This document shows, piece by piece, positions 20,963-26,569 of a stretch of DNA of 64,000 nucleotides. Both the position numbers and the translations under genes were made by a program. How positions within the stretch are numbered: the stretch's first letter is position 1; every line of letters starts with the position of its first letter. This DNA comes from Haloplanus vescus (GTDB lineage Archaea > Halobacteriota > Halobacteria > Halobacteriales > Haloferacaceae): NCBI RefSeq assembly GCF_900107665.1, contig NZ_FNQT01000001.1:908398-972397 (forward strand). The letters are read 5' to 3'. The notes under the pieces are model-generated. The model was not told the DNA's origin, ran no database searches, and worked only from the letters and a program-made list of their open reading frames with translations.

Positions 20963-22209
20963 TGGAACCCTCCCGTCTCCGCGAAGGTGTCCATCTCCGG
21001 CGCGTCCTCGATATCTCGCTCGTGGGTCTCCTCCAGAACGGTTTCGAGGTCCTTGTCACCGCGCCCGGAGACGTTGAGCAGGACGGTGTCGCCGAGGTCG
21101 GCCTGGGACTCCTCGACGTACGCGACGGCGTGTGCGGACTCCAGCGCAGGGATGACGCCTTCCAACTGCGAGAGGCGGTGGAAGCCCTCGATAGCGCGGT
21201 CGTCGTCGACGTTGGCTGGCGTGACGCGCCCGCTATCGACGAGGTCCGCGAGTTCCGGCCCGACGCCGGCGTAGTCCAGTCCCGCCGAGACGCTGTGAGA
21301 CTCCATTATCTGTCCGTCGCGGTCCTGCAGGACGCGCGTTCGCGACCCGTGGAGGACGCCCTCCGTCCCCGTCGAAAGCGTCGCGGAGTTGGGCGCGACG
21401 CCCGCTTCCTCGTCGACTTCGAGACTGCTCCCGCCGGCTTCGACGGCGTAGAGGTCCACGTCCTCGTCGTCGACGAACTCCGCGAAGACGCCCATCGTGT
21501 TCGACCCGCCGCCCGCGCAGGTGACGACGGCGTCGGGGAGGCCGCCCGTCTTCTCCCGCATCTGTGCGCGCGCCTCTTCCGAAATGACGCGTTGGAAGTC
21601 ACGCACCATCGCCGGGAAGGGGTGGGGGCCGACGACGCTCCCGATGACGTAGTGGGTGTCCTCGACGTTGGCCGCCCAGTCGCGCATCGTCTCGCTGATG
21701 GCCTCTTTCAGCGTGCCGCGCCCGACGGTGACGGGATTCACCTCGGCGTCGTTGAGGCGCATCCGGAACACGTTGGGGCGCTGGCGGTTGATGTCGCGCC
21801 GCCCCATGTACACCTCGCAGGGCATGCCGAGGTGGGCACAGGCCATCGCCGTCGCGGTGCCGTGCTGACCCGCACCCGTCTCCGCGATGATGCGCTCTTT
21901 GCCCATGTACTTCGCGAGCAACACCTGTCCGAGCGCGTTGTTCAACTTGTGAGCGCCGCCGTGGAGGAGGTCCTCGCGCTTAAGGTACACGTCACAGTCG
22001 TAGCGCTCCGAGAGGCGGTCGGCGTGTTGGACGGGTGTCGGGCGCCCGCCGAAATCCGCCAGTCGCTGCCGGAACTCGTCCATGAAGCCGTCTTCGTTGT
22101 TCAGGACGTAGCGCTCGTAGGCGTCCTCCAGTTCCTCGATGGCCGGCATCAAGGCCTCCGGAACGTACTGTCCACCGTACTCGCCGAATTTTCCTGTATC
22201 AGAACTCAT
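20959..22209 (-). CDS. trpB: Tryptophan synthase beta subunit
   Basis: 416 residues from ATG at 22209, which overlaps the trpC stop (ATGA). PLP-binding Lys88 lies in [13 protein letters not shown]; catalytic Glu110 lies in AETGAGQHG; the phosphate loop is [10 protein letters not shown]. It joins indole and serine into tryptophan. Length and motifs match TrpB1, the form that works as a complex with TrpA, and the genes are directly coupled. Confidence 0.97.
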
Positions 22210-22964
22210 GCTGTGGTAAATTGCCGCACGTTGTCGGTCACGTCGCCGTCCATGATCGCACTCCCGATGAGGAGGGCGTCCGCGCCCGCCTCGCGCATCC
22301 GCCGCACGTCTGCCACCGAACCGATACCGCTCTCTGCGATCAGCGTCACGTCCTCGGGGACGTGGGGCGCAATCGACTCGAAGGTGTCGAGGTCGACCTC
22401 CAGTTGCCCGAGGTCGCGGTTGTTGACGCCGATCAGGTCCGCGTCCGCCGCGAGCGCCCGGTCTAACTCCGCACGCGTGTGGACTTCGACCAACGGCTGG
22501 AAGCCCCGGTCTTCGGCGGCCGTCACCAGACCGGGCAGGTCGTCCACGAACCGCGCAATCAACAGGACCAGGTCCGATTCCACGAGGTCGAGTTGCGCCT
22601 CCTCGACGATAAAGTCCTTGCGCAAGACCGGCACGTCGACGGCGTCTCTGACGCGTTCGAGCGCCGCCATCGACCCGCCGAAGTGTTCGGGTTCGGTCAG
22701 AACCGACAGCGCCGCGGCCCCGCCCGATACCATCGCCTGCGCGAGTTCGACGGGGTCGTCGTCGCGTCGCCCCTCGGTCGTGGGGCTGGTCGGTTTCATC
22801 TCCGCGATGACTGGCACCCGACCGTCGGCCTCGGCGTCGGCGAGCGCCGCCGAAAACGACCGTGCGTCGACCGACACGCGCTCGTCGCCGCCCGCGCGCT
22901 CGCGAGCGGCCGAGAGAATCGAGCGCACTGCGGGCGCGAGTTCTTCACCATTAGCGTCCATCAT
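22206..22964 (-). CDS. trpC: Indole-3-glycerol phosphate synthase
   Basis: 252 residues from ATG at 22964 (a second ATG follows directly). Active-site residues are seen in [13 protein letters not shown] (Lys), VLRKDFIV (Lys), GVNNRDL (Asn) and IAESGIGS (Glu, Ser). The enzyme closes the indole ring from CdRP. First gene of trpCBA; the order matches the known haloarchaeal operon, in which trpDFEG is elsewhere. A TATA-like element places the transcription start at the ATG. Confidence 0.96.
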
Positions 22965-22985
22965 TGTACACTAACGAACTGATTT

Positions 22986-22994
22986 GCACATAAG
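22986..22994 (-). promoter_or_regulatory. trpCBA promoter TATA-like element
   Basis: The minus strand reads CTTATGTGC, centred 26 nt upstream of ATG 22964, within a locally AT-rich segment. It predicts a leaderless trpCBA transcript. No attenuator-like peptide or hairpin is visible in this short region. Confidence 0.5.
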
Positions 22995-23035: not shown

Positions 23036-23482
23036 ATGGAAGGCATCTACGCACGGGCATCGCCGCGACTCGGTCGTGCGGTGCAGATTGGCGTCGTCGC
23101 GGAGCGAGTCATCAGCGTCTCGTTCCCCGACGACCCGCCCGCAGACTCCGAGCCCGACCACCCGATTCTCGACCGTATCTTCGCGTATCTGGACGGTGCC
23201 GAAGACCACTTCGACGACGTGCCGGTCGGTCTCACCGTCCCGACGGACCAACGGGCCGTCCTCGACGCCGTCCGGAACGTCCCCTACGGCGAGACGGTCG
23301 ATGTCGCCCGCGTGGCGCGTCTCGCCGGCCTCGACGACGAGGACCAAGCCGACCTCGACACCGTCCGCGAAGCGCTCCGCGCGAATCCGACGCCGCTGGT
23401 CATCCCCGACCACCGCGTGTCGGGACCGGGCGCCACCCCGGGCGACGTTGCCGAACGGCTTCGCGAGGTCGAGACGCAGTAA
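23036..23482 (+). CDS. MGMT/Ogt-like protein lacking the catalytic cysteine
   Basis: 148 residues from ATG 23036. The C-terminal 80 residues match the DNA-binding and active-site domain of O6-alkylguanine-DNA alkyltransferases: a winged-helix part with VRNVPYGETVDVARVARLAG, then NPTPLVIPDHRVSGPG. In active enzymes the last motif is PCHRV; here Asp125 stands where the alkyl-accepting Cys should be, while His126 and Arg127 remain. Direct alkyl transfer is therefore unlikely. It could act like alkyltransferase-like (ATL) proteins, which bind damage and recruit repair, or have a new use. Divergent from trpC with 71 bp between starts. Confidence 0.8.
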   Translation: MEGIYARASPRLGRAVQIGVVAERVISVSFPDDPPADSEPDHPILDRIFAYLDGAEDHFDDVPVGLTVPTDQRAVLDAVRNVPYGETVDVARVARLAGLDDEDQADLDTVREALRANPTPLVIPDHRVSGPGATPGDVAERLREVETQ

Positions 23483-23496
23483 CTCAGCGCGGACGG

Positions 23497-24237
23497 TCAC
23501 GCGCTGCGCTCGTTGACGACGAACTCCAGAGCGTTCACGAGGTAGTGCGCAACGACTACCGTCAGGAGGCTGTCGGTCACGACGAACGCCGCCGCGAGGA
23601 CGAACCCGAGGAGCCCGGTGACGACGATACCGACCCGGCCCTGCGCGCCGTGTCCGAGGGCGAACGCGACCGACGAACACGCGGCGAGCAGCCACGGCGA
23701 GACGCCGAAGCCGGTGGCGAACGCGCCGACGAGGATGCCCCGAAAGAGCAGTTCTTCGAAGCCGGCGACGAGGGGAAGCGCCACGAACAGCAGCACCGCC
23801 CAGCCGGCGGCCGACTCCGGCGCCAACGCCTCCCGGAGCGCCGCGGTGTCGCCGAACCCGAACCGGTCACCGAGACGCGAGCCGAGCGTGTTCAGGGTGT
23901 GGAGCGCGACACCGACGCCGACGCCCGCGCCCAGCGCCACCGGGTCGACCGCGTCGGCCGAGAGTCCGAGCGCCGCGGCCGGGACGCCGGCGACCCACAG
24001 CCCCGTGACGAGCACCGTGGCGAACAGCCCCTGCGAGACGACGACGTTCGCGAGCAGCGCTGCGGTGGAGGGAGCGCGGTCGCTCGGCGGCGAATCGACG
24101 ACGCGGTCGCTCAGCGTGGGTGGGTAGTCGGCCGTCGATTCCGTGGGCGTGAGCGCGTCCGCGGAGAGACGGGATAAGAGAAGTAACCCGGCGAGGACGA
24201 CGCCGACGAAGCCGGCGAAGGCCGTCCACGCGGGCAT
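23497..24237 (-). CDS. CPBP family intramembrane metalloprotease
   Basis: 246 residues from ATG at 24237. About six or seven hydrophobic segments. The CPBP (Abi/CAAX) motifs are intact: FEELLFRG (EExxxR), FALGHGAQG (FxxxH) and HYLVNALEF (HxxxN). Family members cleave prenylated or other membrane substrates, or act in bacteriocin-type immunity; the substrate here is unknown. It lies convergent to the MGMT-like gene and directly downstream of lonB on the same strand, with 48 bp between. Confidence 0.87.
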   Translation of the reverse strand: MPAWTAFAGFVGVVLAGLLLLSRLSADALTPTESTADYPPTLSDRVVDSPPSDRAPSTAALLANVVVSQGLFATVLVTGLWVAGVPAAALGLSADAVDPVALGAGVGVGVALHTLNTLGSRLGDRFGFGDTAALREALAPESAAGWAVLLFVALPLVAGFEELLFRGILVGAFATGFGVSPWLLAACSSVAFALGHGAQGRVGIVVTGLLGFVLAAAFVVTDSLLTVVVAHYLVNALEFVVNERSA

Positions 24238-24285: not shown

Positions 24286-26403
24286 TTACTGCGGGCTGGG
24301 GCTGCTCGGGCCCTGCTGGACGCTCTGGTTCTCGAGTGCCGAGCCAGTGATGGTCTTGAGCCGGTTGACCAGCGAATCCTTCTCGGCCTCGCCTTCGAGG
24401 GCGACGTCGAGGACTTCGCTGATGTGGCTGACCGGGATGATCTCGATCATCTCCTCGTACTCGTCCTCGATCATCACGTCCTGCATGTTGGCCTCAGGGA
24501 TGATGACGCGGTCACATCCCGTCTTGGCGGCGGCCTCTATCTTGTGCGTGACGCCGCCGACTGGGAGCACGTCGCCGCGGACGGAGAGCGACCCGGTCAT
24601 CGCGAGCGACTGGTCGACGCCCACGTCTTCGAGGGCGCTGATGACCGCCGTCGCGACGGTGATGGAGGCGGAGTCGCCGTCGACGCCGCCCTCACCCGCC
24701 TGGACGAACTGGATGTGGATGTCCTTCTGGGTGATGTCCTCGTCGGAGAACTTCTTGATAATCGCCGAGACGTTGGAGACGGCTTCCTGTGCCATCTCCT
24801 TGAGCTGGCCGGTGGCGATGACTTCGCCCGGCCCCTGCGAGGGCGTCACTTCGGCCATCACGGGGAGGACGATACCGGAGTCCTCGCCCATGACCGCGAG
24901 GCCATTGACACGGCCGGGGACGTAGCCCTCGCTGACCTGCAGTTCGTAGTCCTTGCGGCGCTGGATGAAGTCGTCCGCGAGCTGCTGTTCGATGCTTCGG
25001 GACCGACCCTTCGCCTGCAGGACGTGGTCTCGGGTCGTGTACTCGGCGTCCTCGGCGCGAGCGATGTCGCCCGCGACGCGGACGAGGCCGCCGAGGTTCC
25101 GGAGTTCGAGCGTCAGGTGGCCCTTTCGTCCCGCGCGACGACGGGCTTCGAGGATGACCTCCTCGATGGCGTCGTCGGTGAAGTGCGGGAGCCGACCGTC
25201 TTTCTCGACCTCTTGGGCGATGAAGCGGGCGTACTTCCGGCGCATGTCGGGCGTGTCCTCGATGGTGTCGTCCATGTACACCTCGTACCCGTAGCCCTTG
25301 ATACGCGAGCGGAGCGCCGGGTGCATGTTCTCCATGGCGTCGAGGTTCCCCGCTGCAATCATGACGAAGTCACAGGGGACGGGTTCGGTCTGGACCATCG
25401 CGCCCGAGGAGCGCTCGGACTGGCCCGTGATGCCGAACTCGCCCTCCTGAATCGCCGTCATGAGGTGCTGCTGGGAGCGAACGTCGAGCGTGTTGATTTC
25501 GTCGACGAACAGCACGCCCTTGTTGGCCTTGTGGATGGCACCGGGTTCGACCCGGTCGTGCGACGGCGTCTCCATGCCACCGGACTGGAACGGGTCGTGT
25601 CGCACGTCGCCGAGGAGCGCACCAGCGTGCGCGCCCGTAGCGTCCTCGAACGGTGCCGTCTGCTGGTCCGCCGTGTTCACGATGAGGTTCGGAATCATCG
25701 CGTCCGAACCGCGAGAGCCGTAGCGGAAGGCGAGGTAGATGATCCCCGCCGCGAGGATGCCGAGCAGGATGTTCCCCGCGATGATGAGGGAGTAGCCCAG
25801 CACGATGGCGATGATGATCCACATCAAGAAGGAGCGCATCTGGTTGCGCTTGCGGGCCTCCTCCTTGTGGGCCTCGACGATTTGGTCGCCCTTCCCCGAG
25901 GGGACAGTCCGAACCTTGGGTTCGTTGCCGTCGTCGGGGTTGTGATAGACCAGCACGTCCTGAAGTTCCTCCTTCGGGAGGAGTTCGCTCATCGCCTTCG
26001 CGAGCATCGACTTCCCCGTCCCGGGGGAGCCGATCATCATGACGTGCCGGCGCTGTTTGGCCGCCTTCATGACCACGTCGCGGGCGTGTTCCTGTCCGAT
26101 GACCTGGTCGACGAGTCGGTCGGGGACCTGAATCTCCGCAGTCGAGTCTATCTGCAGGCCACCGAGGAGGCCGTCCTCCGCGTCCTCGTCGATTTCGGCA
26201 TCTATCTGGACGTCGCTGCCGAGGTCCTCGATGGACCCCTCGTCCGCACCGTCACCGGCGTCAGGCTCGGGTTCCGGGTCAGACGGGACAGAGACGTCGT
26301 CTTCCCATTCGTCGGCCCCACCACGTTCGTCACGAGGCGAGTCACCGTCGACTCGCTCCGCACCGTCGGGCGGGCGCTCGTCCGTGTTCGTGTCGTCGTT
26401 CAT
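24286..26403 (-). CDS. Membrane-anchored ATP-dependent Lon protease, archaeal LonB
   Basis: 705 residues from ATG at 26403. An acidic 90-residue N-terminal tail precedes the AAA+ module with Walker A GSPGTGKS (125-132). The ATPase domain is interrupted by two hydrophobic helices (about 193-226), the membrane anchor typical of archaeal LonB. Walker B is GVLFVDEIN. The C-terminal protease domain has the Ser-Lys dyad S578 (GDSAS) and K621 (VTHKIE). In haloarchaea LonB is essential and controls lipid and carotenoid enzyme levels such as phytoene synthase. Transcribed singly from a clear TATA element. Confidence 0.96.
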   Translation of the reverse strand: MNDDTNTDERPPDGAERVDGDSPRDERGGADEWEDDVSVPSDPEPEPDAGDGADEGSIEDLGSDVQIDAEIDEDAEDGLLGGLQIDSTAEIQVPDRLVDQVIGQEHARDVVMKAAKQRRHVMMIGSPGTGKSMLAKAMSELLPKEELQDVLVYHNPDDGNEPKVRTVPSGKGDQIVEAHKEEARKRNQMRSFLMWIIIAIVLGYSLIIAGNILLGILAAGIIYLAFRYGSRGSDAMIPNLIVNTADQQTAPFEDATGAHAGALLGDVRHDPFQSGGMETPSHDRVEPGAIHKANKGVLFVDEINTLDVRSQQHLMTAIQEGEFGITGQSERSSGAMVQTEPVPCDFVMIAAGNLDAMENMHPALRSRIKGYGYEVYMDDTIEDTPDMRRKYARFIAQEVEKDGRLPHFTDDAIEEVILEARRRAGRKGHLTLELRNLGGLVRVAGDIARAEDAEYTTRDHVLQAKGRSRSIEQQLADDFIQRRKDYELQVSEGYVPGRVNGLAVMGEDSGIVLPVMAEVTPSQGPGEVIATGQLKEMAQEAVSNVSAIIKKFSDEDITQKDIHIQFVQAGEGGVDGDSASITVATAVISALEDVGVDQSLAMTGSLSVRGDVLPVGGVTHKIEAAAKTGCDRVIIPEANMQDVMIEDEYEEMIEIIPVSHISEVLDVALEGEAEKDSLVNRLKTITGSALENQSVQQGPSSPSPQ

Positions 26404-26441
26404 AGAACGGTATCGTTGGTAGACCTGAAGGGGGCGCGCTT

Positions 26442-26450
26442 GATATACTT
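26442..26450 (-). promoter_or_regulatory. lonB promoter TATA box
   Basis: The minus strand reads AAGTATATC, about 43 nt upstream of ATG 26403; the mRNA should carry a leader of roughly 15-18 nt. Confidence 0.5.
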
Positions 26451-26539
26451 TCTCCCACACAGAATCAGTAGTGAGGCCCAGATTCGACGTTTTGGGGGCG
26501 TTTTCGGCCCGAATTCGAGCGTCGAGGTGTCTCGTCGAA

Positions 26540-26548
26540 TTTATAAAT
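26540..26548 (+). promoter_or_regulatory. TATA box of the NMN adenylyltransferase gene
   Basis: TTTATAAAT, a near-consensus archaeal TATA box, is centred 26-27 nt before ATG 26570 and so indicates a leaderless transcript. It is back-to-back with the lonB promoter. Confidence 0.65.
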
Positions 26549-26569
26549 GACCGCACGCACATCTATACC

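Follow-up and report, generated by a model that had tools for sequence, protein, structure and literature searches.

An MGMT-fold protein of Halobacteria with aspartate in place of the alkyl-acceptor cysteine

Results and Discussion

A small protein of Haloplanus vescus belongs to the MGMT kind but carries Asp where the alkyl-acceptor Cys is expected, and its orthologues occur in almost all Halobacteria. We suggest, with somewhat more confidence than doubt, that it represents a Halobacteria-wide pseudo-alkyltransferase that is now a non-catalytic binding protein. Within the MGMT kind, the Asp family is a variant that differs from the ATL proteins, and we have found no published account of it.

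Sequence and predicted fold

The window analysed is a stretch of 64,000 nucleotides of the H. vescus genome (contig NZ_FNQT01000001.1), and the features discussed here are listed in Table 1. The gene begins with ATG, and its product matches PF01035 with 39.4 bits, above the Pfam cut-off of 27, and scores 29.3 bits against NCBIfam ogt (TIGR00589), under the cut-off of 46.4. In the motif IPDHRV, His126 and Arg127 are retained beside Asp125. Thus, the description in an earlier note on this DNA, of an MGMT-like protein with Asp at the acceptor site, is borne out. A second PF01035 protein was not found in the source genome (2.78 Mb, 10 contigs, 99.8% complete). Comparison with relatives puts the window within Haloplanus or close to it, and the Haloplanus ruber protein is identical to that from another genome of the genus.

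Table 1. Features of the window referred to in the text.
Feature	Position	Strand	Basis
MGMT-fold protein, Asp replacing the alkyl-acceptor Cys, 148 aa	23036..23482	+	ORF; PF01035; AlphaFold2 pLDDT 97.3
Asp125 codon GAC, alkyl-acceptor position in IPDHRV	23408..23410	+	Orthologue column counts
Val90 codon GTC, at the base-flipping Tyr position	23303..23305	+	Tyr in 0/163 main-radiation orthologues
GTAC-type boxes, about 10 bp apart, abutting the trpC start, TGTACACTAACGAACTGATTTGCACATAAG	22965..22994	.	trpC promoter
trpC, indole-3-glycerol phosphate synthase, divergent neighbour	22206..22964	-	Pfam PF00218
Rce1-like (CPBP) membrane protein, downstream neighbour	23497..24237	-	Pfam PF02517
LonB protease	24286..26562	-	Pfam PF05362 + PF20436

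An AlphaFold2 model built from an alignment of 72 orthologues (pLDDT 97.3, pTM 0.89) predicts a complete two-domain MGMT fold, N-terminal domain included. Among solved structures, the model is matched best, and along its entire length, by OGTs of archaea and bacteria: 4zyd from Sulfolobus (Z 17.6, rmsd 2.2, 138 residues aligned) and 4wxd from M. tuberculosis (Z 17.5, 136 residues aligned). With the MGMT/OGT/AGT proteins, the Asp protein shares the two-domain fold, the PF01035 match, and the active-site Asn hinge, His, Arg, and Glu. However, it is 22-24% identical to these two structures, it is without the acceptor Cys, the flipping Tyr, and the Lys, its active-site loop is shortened, and it has a new Arg143 and an acidic HTH.

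Conservation in Halobacteria

Of 391 Halobacteria genomes searched with the Asp protein as the query, 390 contain an orthologue. The sole genome without a match, G340, is 88% complete, and a repeat search of it was also negative. The remainder of the phylum gave weak matches only (best E 2.7e-10), and the eight of these that were inspected are all of the canonical PCHR kind. In-frame stops interrupt one orthologue (L164, from G317), which is a rare damaged copy, and one genome, G370, gives two separate matches to the Asp protein.

Loci were sampled from the Halobacteria genomes together with five named records, giving five early-branching loci (L166, L167, L168, L232, and L234) and, from the main radiation, 163 loci that encode 161 distinct proteins. 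The duplicates L001, L201, L231, and L233 were removed before counting, while the truncated L164 and L165 were retained. Over the same nine genomes of the genus, the median dN/dS of the Asp gene is 0.19, compared with 0.22 for the neighbouring trpC. Judging from this ratio and from the conserved Asn/His/Arg/Glu core described below, the Asp gene is functional and under purifying selection.

Besides the Asp family, a strong PF01035 match (E below 1e-15) is present in 140 of the 391 genomes, a count that leaves out the four early-branching genomes. About 247 of the 391, the source genome among them, have no strong canonical MGMT beside the Asp protein. Genomes that have a canonical MGMT and genomes that lack one alike retain the protein, so it does more than stand in for that enzyme or help it.

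Changes at the active site

The earlier note held that suicide transfer of alkyl groups is lost here, and that Cys in orthologues would point to a local mutation or sequence error. The acceptor position is Asp in 153 of the 163 main-radiation loci, so that the residue is indeed conserved among haloarchaeal orthologues, and the other ten carry Ser (4), Thr (4), Ala (1), or Gly (1). Cys is found in none of the 163, which agrees with the loss of the suicide acceptor, and occurs only in two of the five early-branching loci, the other three of which have Ser. The Asp is thus not absolute. The PCHR motif is present in 40 of the 41 canonical MGMT loci that we fetched, and the extracted stretch of the exception, L011, missed the motif. 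Among the Asp loci, GDHR replaces PDHR in L078, L085, L147, L206, and L217, and L127 has the variant PDHC.

The acceptor is not the only residue to have changed. Position 90, that of the base-flipping Tyr, is Val in 124 of the 163 loci, Leu in 25, Ile in 6, Ala in 3, Thr in 2, and Phe, Arg, or Cys in one each, and is never Tyr. By contrast, the Tyr is kept in all five early-branching loci and in 17 of 17 aligned canonical MGMTs. Lys at position 139, in the C-terminal helix, shows the same division, with 0/163 in the main radiation and 5/5 in the early-branching loci. Position 143 is Arg in 158 of the 163 and Leu in 5/5 early-branching loci, and this Arg143 sits one helical turn ahead of the nearly invariant Glu146. 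The aromatic/glycine active-site loop is shortened in the main radiation and kept in the early-branching loci. As regards covariation of the two positions, Arg143 mostly remains where Asp125 is replaced by Ser, Thr, or Ala; both changes fall on one stem. Against these changes, the core of Asn117 (163/163), His126 (163/163), Arg127 (162/163), and Glu146 (162/163) is almost invariant in the main radiation.

The position aligned with the Arg finger is variable, with Arg in 26 of the 163 main-radiation loci. We rejected loss of the finger as a hallmark of the Asp family, because it is missing as well from the early-branching members and from 10/10 aligned haloarchaeal canonical MGMTs, while it is present in 7/7 MGMTs of other classes. 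The ten haloarchaeal canonical MGMTs have Val or Ile at this position.

The HTH stretch (residues 86-117) has a mean net charge of -5.3 in the 163 main-radiation loci and -6.0 in the five early-branching loci. Canonical MGMTs average -1.4 in the 10 from haloarchaea and +2.1 in the 7 from other classes. With such an acidic face, the HTH of the Asp protein probably does not read DNA in the manner of MGMT. However, acidity alone is no proof that DNA binding has been lost, since net charge is a bulk measure, the proteome is acidic, and the early-branching members with Cys and Tyr are equally acidic.

Ancestry

A quick maximum-likelihood tree was made of 137 family rows and 17 canonical sequences; it predates the last loci added, and several canonical MGMT branches are long and unsurely placed. 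The family, including its early-branching members, forms one clade (SH-aLRT 97), and nested inside it is the main radiation (SH-aLRT 97), with three early-branching members outside. Two members with Ser diverge first within the main radiation. The canonical haloarchaeal MGMTs belong to the same superfamily as the Asp protein, but they keep PCHRV, Tyr, and Lys and fall in a separate clade of this tree.

The early-branching orthologues have the same N-terminal signature as the Asp family, and the three in the tree belong to the same clade, but they differ from it in having Cys or Ser and in keeping the Tyr, the Lys, and the loop. The presence of LonB and the nucleotidyltransferase gene near the L168 locus supports orthology. 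At the two loci examined upstream, L166 (3974-5061) and L168 (3953-5046), the Cys-type family gene lies directly after a TBP gene on the same strand; the TBP gene overlaps it in L166, and a gap of 35 bp separates the two in L168. Because the early-branching loci carry Cys or Ser and keep the flipping Tyr, the Asp protein is, on sequence grounds, a descendant of a Cys-type MGMT.

Possible functions

What does the protein do now? Because the acceptor is gone, it would be unable to accept alkyl groups in the known way, and because the Tyr and the loop are lost, the known way of holding a flipped O6-alkylguanine would be closed to it as well. The sequences show an origin from an ancestral Cys-type MGMT, still visible in the early-branching lineages. 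When the main radiation arose, Asp took the place of the acceptor Cys on its stem, and Val or Leu that of the flipping Tyr. The same stem saw the loss of the aromatic/glycine active-site loop and of the Lys that lies behind this loop, and the fixation of the new Arg143, one turn of helix before Glu146. The predicted two-domain fold and the Asn117-His126-Arg127-Glu146 core were retained under purifying selection. The present role may be that of an adaptor or regulator that touches a protein or a small ligand, and the contact surface may be formed by the conserved N-terminal domain and a putative remodelled polar pocket with Asp125 and Arg143. Strong conservation in the absence of the known chemistry is most simply explained by a non-catalytic binding role, although we are less sure of this adaptor or regulator role than of the loss of the known chemistry.

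The earlier note had suggested that the protein might flag damaged DNA like the ATL proteins. It would then bind O6-alkylguanine without repairing it and recruit nucleotide excision repair. Three observations would fit, namely that the acceptor Cys is replaced as it is in ATLs, that the PF01035 domain comes with an HTH, and that the source genome has no other PF01035 protein. ATLs, such as Atl1 of S. pombe (3gva/3gx4) and the V. parahaemolyticus protein (2kif), likewise have a non-Cys MGMT-type C-terminal domain, but ATL structures match our model at residues 67-148 only, with Z of 5.7 to 6.4. According to the available part of PMC10779285, ATLs lack the N-terminal domain, have mostly Trp in place of the Cys, and conserve both the flipping Tyr and the Arg finger. 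The Asp protein is the opposite with respect to the domain and the Tyr, and the finger position is variable; Trp is found at the acceptor position in none of the 163 main-radiation loci. Furthermore, the Asp protein has an acidic HTH and has lost the active-site loop. Thus, the suggestion was not borne out, and with this domain content, Tyr, loop, and HTH charge we have rejected a lesion flag as the leading view and consider it unlikely.

The trp operon

The earlier note had also raised a regulatory role and pointed to the divergence of the gene from the trp operon. The gap between trpC and the Asp gene is 71 bp, and trpC is followed by trpB, trpA, and a gene for a DeoC-family aldolase; Pfam matches bear out the identity of the trp genes and, on the other side, of the Rce1-like, LonB, and nucleotidyltransferase genes. 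The divergent arrangement is real, with trpC within 450 bp of the Asp gene at 125 of the 163 main-radiation loci; the linkage is absent from 5/5 early-branching loci. However, it singles out nothing. On the other flank, LonB and the nucleotidyltransferase gene form a block that is conserved too: in a control set of 30 genomes from different families, trpC lies within 450 bp of the Asp gene in 25, the nucleotidyltransferase gene lies within 10 kb of the Asp gene in 23, and LonB is no more than 1.5 kb away from the nucleotidyltransferase gene in all 30. Since this flank is about as conserved, the trp link is not exceptional.

The GTAC-type boxes, which we take to resemble the TRP box of TrpY, also follow trpC. 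Of 25 possible points, 104 of the 106 sequences of the shared spacer (one a duplicate) reach at least 20 and the remaining two reach 17; as these spacers also supplied the consensus, the high scores arise partly by construction. Boxes are also found at trpC in all 17 main-radiation genomes in which it lies apart from the Asp gene, with scores of 18 to 23 of 25; these genomes were outside the consensus, and the best of 200 shuffles per stretch scores 14 to 18. No boxes were found at trpC in the three early-branching genomes searched (11 to 13 of 25), nor was a box found upstream of the Asp gene at 28 loci not tightly linked to trpC, where the best raw score is 14 of 25. trpC itself is still present in 31 of 31 checked genomes lacking tight linkage. 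The strict box pattern occurs once in the source genome, at trpC. Because the boxes stay with trpC when the two genes are apart, they belong, as far as their positions in the genomes tell, to the trpC promoter and not to the Asp gene. Across the main radiation they lie over the trpC start and promoter and are a likely trp operator.

Could the Asp protein be the regulator that reads these boxes? It would then bind them through its MGMT fold and repress trpCBA, taking the part played by TrpY in Methanothermobacter. There, the promoters of trpY and of the trp operon overlap in the stretch between them, and TrpY acts on boxes within these promoters (available text of PMC6737238). The precedent and the divergent arrangement would suit this proposal, as would the conserved boxes, which border on trpC where the two genes are linked and are also found at it in the unlinked main-radiation genomes. 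In addition, the boxes, the linkage, and the loss of the Cys fall on the same stem, with the early-branching genomes lacking boxes (3/3) and linkage (5/5). Nevertheless, this co-occurrence amounts to a single event on one stem, and the boxes do not accompany the Asp gene at the 28 loci where it is apart from trpC, which argues against autoregulation of the TrpY type. The comparable conservation of the other flank and the acidic HTH also count against it. Other candidates exist as well: TrpY homologues occur in haloarchaea (PMC6737238, available text), and in Halobacterium, which induces its trpCBA operon when aromatic amino acids are lacking, LrpA2 has been proposed as a regulator of aromatic amino acid synthesis (PMC4162585, available text). 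Repression of trpCBA by the Asp protein is therefore quite doubtful in our estimation. We are very doubtful of the fuller scenario, in which the fold was exapted on the main-radiation stem, losing repair and base flipping, gaining a charged ligand pocket (Asp125 and Arg143), and coming to control trp through the boxes. If it were true, the MGMT fold would have been exapted as a transcription regulator of the divergent trp operon.

Residual catalysis and gene decay

MGMT catalysis uses a His-Glu-Asn network, and its retention could signal residual chemistry in the Asp protein. The carboxylate of Asp125, together with His126 and Glu146, would then activate water for a multi-turnover hydrolysis of an alkyl or other group. 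Asp, His, and Glu do lie in the former catalytic network, and the His and Glu are almost invariant; however, canonical MGMTs conserve these two to the same degree, and the role of both residues may be structural. Furthermore, ten of the 163 otherwise intact orthologues do without the Asp, having Ser, Thr, Ala, or Gly instead, and the family has lost the substrate-holding Tyr and loop. We regard an active Asp enzyme as highly improbable. To a local mutation, a sequencing error, or a decaying gene we give next to no credence, since the broken copy in G317 and the two separate matches in G370 are outweighed by the orthologue survey, with its conserved Asp, a dN/dS of about 0.19, and presence in all Halobacteria genomes but one.

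Implications

Literature searches, which covered texts other than supplements, found no published description of the Asp protein. A search with the tags HVO_0785 to HVO_0787, presumably those of the H. volcanii locus as guessed from neighbouring tags, also gave no matches. It is not described in the available text of PMC7776575, PMC3287961, PMC8305020, PMC10117719, PMC2816208, PMC7216122, or PMC7690668.

Nearly every haloarchaeon thus has a member of a DNA-repair family that very probably cannot perform the repair reaction, so claims about O6-methylguanine repair in haloarchaea that are based on annotation need checking. The Asp protein is probably no longer a repair enzyme and has been retained for another job. 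The Asp family would be a third outcome of the MGMT fold, next to AGT and ATL, and the early-branching lineages, as living intermediates, make its loss of function traceable.
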